This document shows, piece after piece, positions 23,211 to 23,365 of a stretch of DNA of 64,000 nucleotides. Origin of the DNA: an uncultured Actinomycetes bacterium (lineage in GTDB: Bacteria > Actinomycetota > Actinomycetes > Nanopelagicales > Nanopelagicaceae); NCBI GenBank assembly GCA_903846075.1, contig CAIMZW010000041.1, forward strand, positions 1 to 64,000. Reading direction: 5' to 3'. Each line of letters starts with the position of its first letter. Position 1 is the first letter of the stretch. A program made the position numbers and the translations under genes. Under the pieces are notes generated by a model. That model ran no database searches. It saw only the letters and a program-made list of their open reading frames with translations, and was not told the DNA's origin.

Positions 23211-23365
23211 TTTTCTCTACTCCTCGTGTTATTTAGTCGCGGTTGGTTGGTTGGCTACCGGCACGACCAAACCCCGCGGGCGAGGTGACCGGTTAGTTGG
23301 CCCCGCCGCGGCAGCGAAGGAGGAGTCCTAGAGGAGAGAGAATGCTGCACATACCTGAAAGGATA
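23211..23365 (-). promoter_or_regulatory. leuA leader / attenuator region
   Basis: Minus strand order: -10-like TATCCT (23365-23360), 7 bases, leader-peptide ORF, then GC-rich sequence that can fold: ACCGG...CCGGT with CAC/GTG inside, and CCCGCGGG at the core, followed by GCCAACCAACC and the leuA ribosome site. Leader-peptide attenuation of leuA is known in Actinobacteria. The alternative structures were only paired by eye. Confidence 0.6.
23293..23352 (-). CDS. Leucine leader peptide
   Basis: A 19-residue ORF, MCSILSPLGLLLRCRGGAN, with five Leu codons including three in a row (CTC CTC CTT) plus CTC and CTA. It ends about 80 bases before leuA, next to inverted repeats. Ribosome stalling at the leucine run under leucine shortage would let leuA be expressed. 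The ATG has no Shine-Dalgarno; a TATCCT -10 box 7 bases upstream predicts a leaderless start. Confidence 0.7.
   Translation of the reverse strand: MCSILSPLGLLLRCRGGAN

Follow-up and report, generated by a model that had tools for sequence, protein, structure and literature searches.

The leucine leader at the leuA locus

The window considered here is the whole stretch of 64,000 nucleotides that was analysed, taken from an uncultured bacterium of the family Nanopelagicaceae. Its minus strand carries leuA, which is preceded by a short leucine-rich reading frame. The features at this locus are as follows.

21486 to 23210, minus strand: leuA, 2-isopropylmalate synthase, with a GTG start at 23210 (NCBIfam PRK03739.1, 1.1e-268)
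23220 to 23225, minus strand: Shine-Dalgarno sequence (SD) of leuA, GAGGAG, predicted to be sequestered by leader codons
23352 to 23293, minus strand: leader ORF of 19 codons and TAA, MCSILSPLGLLLRCRGGAN, with five Leu codons and its ATG at 23352-23350
23317 to 23325, minus strand: run of Leu codons, CTC CTC CTT, serving also as anti-SD strand in the base stem
23360 to 23365, minus strand: TATCCT, a -10-like hexamer 7 nt ahead of the leader ATG, matching the consensus and without a good -35

An initial annotation of this DNA had described a 19-codon ORF with five Leu codons, three of them consecutive, in front of leuA, together with a -10-like box 7 bases upstream and GC-rich inverted repeats before leuA. 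All of these were recovered on the minus strand, the box (TATCCT, 23365-23360) as a consensus match only, and the repeats as CCGCGGCGGGG (23311-23301) with CCTCGCCCGCGG (23285-23274). The Leu codons of the leader are CTC, CTA, CTC, CTC and CTT, the last three being consecutive (23325-23317, minus strand), and 82 nt separate the leader stop from the leuA start. Upstream of the leader, an ORF ending at 23400 on the minus strand is presumably glutamine-synthetase-like. A second CU-rich stretch, ATT CTC TCT CCT CTA (23329-23343, minus strand), lies ahead of the Leu run.

The fold of the 141-nt region is more stable than all of 200 dinucleotide shuffles (z -3.56). Rfam gave no covariance-model match at 23150-23450 up to E 10, and no riboswitch, T-box or leader family reached its gathering score in 18 related loci. 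Elsewhere in the window, a SAM-IV riboswitch (54698-54811, minus strand, 105.5 bits) stands immediately 5' of an ORF at 53343-54665, which we take to be O-acetylhomoserine sulfhydrylase-like.

Distribution of the element

Relatives were collected as 80 leuA loci from genome contigs, the nearest names being freshwater Nanopelagicaceae/Planktophila, and as the upstream regions of a further 89 genomes, the window's own not counted, out of the 101 in its family (29 + 60 loci). The covariance model R1, built from 47 elements, scores the window element at 69.5 bits, its sole match at E<=1 in the 1.82 Mb assembly. By this model the element is present at 157 of 170 leuA upstream regions searched, that is, in 88/100 family-side sources and 69/70 sources of other orders. 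In whole genomes of the class, evenly drawn and scored under strict filters, it was found in 375 of 393; a sample of the phylum contained it in 43 of 296 genomes, 35 of which belong to the same class (its own genome included). The initial annotation had staked its reading on conservation of the Leu codons and inverted repeats in related genomes, and both are conserved.

After removal of 10 duplicates (loci L002-L011 partly duplicate genomes listed under G handles), 147 elements remained. Among them, 14 are without an assigned leuA start, 131 entered the footprint test and 93 the synonymous-codon test, and L005, with a short flank, was excluded from the leaderless-start count. Regular-expression searches for leaders (146/170; 111/170) were inconsistent and were replaced by the covariance model, and a first stem scan missed elements with a bulged or variant P1 stem. 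A weak match at G159/L220 (E 9e-5), before an ORF that we assume to be Ku-like, was set aside as probably due to chance.

The window carries an instance of the LEU element published by Seliverstov (2005), in a Nanopelagicaceae form that has a second hairpin, P2, and the extra CU-rich stretch.

Probable leaderless start of the leader

A strict sigma-70 scan of the window region returned no promoter, so the -10 assignment rests on the alignment of relatives and not on a full promoter match. In the deduplicated leuA leaders, TANNNT lies 5-8 nt before an in-frame ATG or GTG leader start in 128 of 146 (6 nt in 94, 7 nt in 32), compared with 2 of 157 for start codons lying out of frame in these stretches. 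Judged by eye, some of the 18 exceptions have TANNNT at least 9 nt upstream of the leader start. Only 5 of these 128 leader starts are preceded by an SD-like motif, and the window leader likewise has its -10 box at leaderless spacing without an SD. LeuL1 of Streptomyces lividans is leaderless by RNA-seq according to the accessible part of PMC8079986.

Owing to these counts, the earlier proposal that the leader begins at the very 5' end of the transcript is well supported by promoter spacing. The same annotation had called this an unusual setting; 128 of 146 leuA leaders and the RNA-seq of LeuL1 point the other way. As far as promoter sequence can tell, the missing Shine-Dalgarno is the rule within the LEU element and no oddity.

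Predicted pairing of the Leu run with the leuA Shine-Dalgarno

The Leu codons were found to have a second partner. In the window, 23326-23320 can pair with 23225-23219 in a base stem of 7 bp, with a duplex energy of -12.1 kcal/mol. The nested minimum-energy fold gives the SD another partner, the CU-rich codons immediately 5' of the run, which would make the stretch at 23329-23343 an extra anti-SD in the window. Across 133 elements, cognate pairing of run and SD is stronger than swapped pairing (-10.96 vs -9.92 kcal/mol), a difference reached in 0/5000 permutations, with the reservation that all permutation tests in this work are inflated by relatedness of the sequences. The result holds in other orders (0/5000) and is weaker within Nanopelagicaceae (18/5000).

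Codon choice in the run points in the same direction. Its third codon is CTT in 144 of 147 elements; in 70 leuA genes from other orders, CTT accounts for 3% of leucine codons. When the run was replaced by synonymous codons sampled from the leuA gene of the same locus, SD sequestration was 3.98 kcal/mol against 5.26 for the native run, the native run sequestering more in 68 of 93 elements. Since the synonymous swap lowers sequestration, the run appears to have been selected both as an anti-SD and for the leucine that it encodes. The pattern LLL-x-(C/R)-R-(G/D) at the leader C-terminus is also conserved in relatives, where the distance from run to leuA start is mostly 90-120 nt.

Structure between the leader and leuA

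Three further structural parts were recognised downstream of the Leu run.

23301 to 23311, minus strand: 5' arm of stem P1, CCGCGGCGGGG, within the last codons of the leader
23274 to 23285, minus strand: 3' arm of stem P1, CCTCGCCCGCGG, with one bulged C
23288 to 23293, minus strand: 5' strand of the pseudoknot, ACCGGU, in the P1 loop, sharing its first base with the end of the leader stop codon
23257 to 23262, minus strand: 3' strand of the pseudoknot, GCCGGU, pairing with ACCGGU as in locus L084
23262 to 23269, minus strand: 5' arm of hairpin P2, TGGTCGTG, its last base competing with the pseudoknot
23234 to 23241, minus strand: 3' arm of hairpin P2, CGCGACTA, paired also in the minimum-energy fold

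The covariation analysis that the initial annotation had proposed bears out P1: in 47 sequences, 99.6% of cells are paired, 4 pairs have changed on both sides, and the covariation score was reached by 0/500 shuffles. For the pseudoknot, cognate pairing of loop and downstream strand exceeds swapped pairing (0/5000 permutations) in a test of 141 of the 147 elements; the other six, including the window and L083 with their P1 bulge, fell below the P1 score cut and were excluded. Neither the pseudoknot nor the pairing of the Leu run with the SD formed part of the earlier account. P2 is supported in Nanopelagicaceae (0/3000 permutations, 69 elements), and was rejected as a universal part on the result in 31 elements of other orders (1540/3000). 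In Nanopelagicaceae, P2 flanks the pseudoknot strand and could turn the pseudoknot into a loop-loop contact.

Modelled release of the Shine-Dalgarno

Taken together, the LEU element of leuA is probably a translational attenuator that responds to leucine through a leaderless leader. Its transcript would start at, or about 1 base from, the leader ATG, and 70S ribosomes would for this reason load on the 5' end of the transcript without an SD. When Leu-tRNA is plentiful, the ribosome would translate to the end of the leader, where the stop codon lies in the P1 loop, and depart; the leader codons would then mask the leuA SD, P1 and the pseudoknot would form, and leuA translation would be low, the untranslated RNA possibly being ended by Rho-dependent termination. 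When Leu-tRNA is scarce, a ribosome stalled on CTC CTC CTT would cover the anti-SD and leave the leuA SD free.

The calculated energies, obtained with a modelled ribosome footprint of 31 nt and an energy model without pseudoknots, are consistent with this scheme. In the window, opening the SD is calculated to cost 10.5 kcal/mol in free RNA, 0.8 with the footprint on the Leu run and again 10.5 when the ribosome stands at the stop of the leader. The mean over 131 elements is 4.74 in free RNA, 3.26 with the footprint on the run and 4.68 at the stop. With the footprint on the run, the opening energy is lower than at the stop in 90 of 131 elements and lower than in free RNA in 79 of 131. It is higher in 36 and 43 of 131, respectively, which counts against an attenuator. 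As modelled, the SD is released in the way that a translational attenuator would release it. No terminator-like site was found in 23100-23480; a classical attenuator with a terminator hairpin and U run was rejected on this result, and the output is therefore likely to be translation initiation.

Loss of the element and a probably leaderless leuA

Within the 90 family genomes, window included, the element is present in 79 and absent in 10; the remaining contig (L128) is cut and was counted neither way. At these 10 loci and L003, TANNNT stands before the leuA ATG itself in 11 of 11, at 6 nt in three and at 9 nt in eight. Such spacing before the leuA start occurs in 0 of 133 loci that bear the element. 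The loci with their own -10 box at leuA are L003, L089, L090, L092, L093, L094, L096 and L103-L106. To judge by this spacing, leuA in the relatives lacking the element is leaderless or near-leaderless, which would leave no SD to hide. The SD-hiding switch and a leaderless leuA appear to be mutually exclusive in this family. At L037, the sole locus of another order without the element, no such -10 box was found before leuA.

The same scaffold before other genes

Many genomes contain two or three elements. In 80 sites examined, seven Leu-run elements stand before leuC, all in one family (L202, L203, L205, L206, L224, L230 and L254), and others before second leuA-type genes. Two leaders, MSRMLVVRRRSGV at L209 and MSWQKLLVTRRSGV at L210, precede an ORF resembling the allosteric (regulatory) domain of LeuA alone; the L209 ORF matches Pfam LeuA_dimer at 1e-4, slightly under the curated cut-off, and the L210 ORF was assigned by eye.

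The scaffold also precedes a small conserved ORF, roughly 20-50 aa long, that ends near DRRDNGG and contains ..ALQEAMDRRDNGG... This type was seen in 26 genomes, a number that is not a frequency because the sites were found by similarity, and leuB lies further downstream in 21 of the 26. The loci are L235, L248, L253, L258, L264, L269, L270, L272, L275, L278, L279, L281, L212 and L214, with part of L282-L311. Neither Pfam nor NCBIfam gave a match for four of the small-ORF peptides. Leaders such as MRFVLILRCRDGA, MLWSVRILSCRDEAR and MRQVLVLITCRGGAC have a mixed run of Val, Ile and Leu codons, Val or Ile codons being present within it in 26/26 by eye. P1 is intact at such sites (100% of cells paired in 16 sequences, comprising 14 of the small-ORF type, L209 and L210), the pseudoknot helices are often at least 8 bp, and the -10 spacing is 6-10 nt by eye. 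A run of Val, Ile and Leu codons on this scaffold is what codon sensing predicts and counts for an attenuator. The pairing of sensor codons with the SD is weak at these sites (141/5000 in 13 sites, one with a misassigned start) and counts against it.

A broader proposal is offered tentatively, at a little under even chances: that a single scaffold of P1 and pseudoknot underlies a codon-exchangeable family of leaderless translational attenuators, acting on transcripts from their own promoters only, and that loss of the element leads to a leaderless leuA. The restriction to own-promoter transcripts would follow from the leader having no SD; in read-through RNA, such as that from the upstream gene in the window, the leuA SD would stay closed. 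The exchange of codons on one scaffold is the wider result and the part worth following.

Alternative explanations

The strongest competitor is transcriptional attenuation, intrinsic or Rho-dependent, in which stalling decides the entry of RNA polymerase into leuA; we consider it unlikely, at roughly one chance in several. A leader and alternative RNA structures are present as it would demand, and leuA-leader RNAs of 85, 65 and 45 nt were seen by Northern blot in M. tuberculosis (PMC3526491, in the part accessible). Against it stand the lack of any terminator-like site in the window region and, in the available text of PMC8079986, a LeuL1 without a typical Rho-independent terminator.

Less probable still is a binding site for a regulatory protein, where the pseudoknot and base stem would be recognised by an RNA-binding protein, with the leader merely incidental. 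The strong conservation of the pseudoknot would suit it, and so would the codon mutants of S. coelicolor: the accessible part of PMC1262725 (Seliverstov 2005) reports leader mutations inconsistent with classical attenuation and prefers a protein-binding site. These mutants also count against an attenuator, and to call attenuation at actinobacterial leuA established, as the initial annotation did, was too strong. The leader frame, its start, the leaderless spacing and codon identity are nevertheless all conserved, which a pure protein site would not need of a reading frame, and where the scaffold precedes the small ORF, its sensor codons switch to Val, Ile and Leu. It may also be suggested that mutants of the Leu codons are hard to interpret because a codon change alters the sensor and the SD-masking stem together.

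That leader translation simply delivers ribosomes to leuA by coupling or reinitiation, without leucine sensing, is very improbable. Such delivery has been proposed for leaderless small ORFs in mycobacteria (PMC4633059, as far as its accessible text goes), but the 82 nt from stop to start in the window and the run-to-start distances in relatives are large for coupling, and this reading offers no explanation for the conserved Leu run or for P1. A chance ORF in a GC-rich spacer, for which one could cite the commonness of short ORFs and the negative strict promoter scan, is refuted by class-wide conservation and deserves practically no weight.

The 2005 paper left the choice between ribosome and protein open. 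Codon sensing is the better hypothesis in view of three observations: the leaderless start is conserved class-wide, the Leu run has a double role as rare codons and anti-SD, and the sensor codons are exchanged in front of the small ORF. The initial proposal, that a leucine leader controls leuA from the 5' end of its transcript, fits the comparative evidence.

Comparison with known systems

Several leuA leaders have been described before, in corynebacteria (accessible parts of PMC5784534, PMC4046766 and PMC3890552) and as a ribosome-protected leuA uORF in M. abscessus (PMC4974804, likewise). As described in the available part of PMC1262725, the LEU element shares with the window a Leu-run leader, the base stem joining the Leu run to the leuA SD, the pseudoknot and a downstream leuA; an alternative hairpin is described there too, and P2 may be its counterpart. 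The window differs in its bulged P1 and supported P2, the latter shared with Nanopelagicaceae. The carriers named in that part are leuA and one transposase gene, and a leaderless start is not discussed there. LeuL1 of S. lividans TK24, a 15-aa leucine leader before leuA, resembles the window in being leaderless and without a typical terminator; it belongs to a different order, and the accessible text of PMC8079986 does not discuss a pseudoknot or pairing of run and SD.

The leaderless polycysteine short ORFs reported from mycobacteria (Canestrari 2020) similarly combine a leaderless start with sensor codons, but for cysteine rather than leucine; their regulation is termed translation attenuation in the available text of PMC13236596. 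The ilvB-II motif and IlvL attenuators (accessible parts of PMC10272879 and PMC8079986) have, as here, a leader rich in branched-chain amino acids before a gene for their biosynthesis. Their output is a terminator/antiterminator decision, whereas the LEU element of the window yielded no terminator, and modelling places its output at the SD. In a search largely confined to freely available papers, judged for the most part from their listings, no report of a LEU element before leuC or leuB was recognised. The LEU element and the leaderlessness of LeuL1 are already known, and what goes beyond them is the scaffold before leuC, before the LeuA_dimer-like ORF and before the small ORF and leuB.
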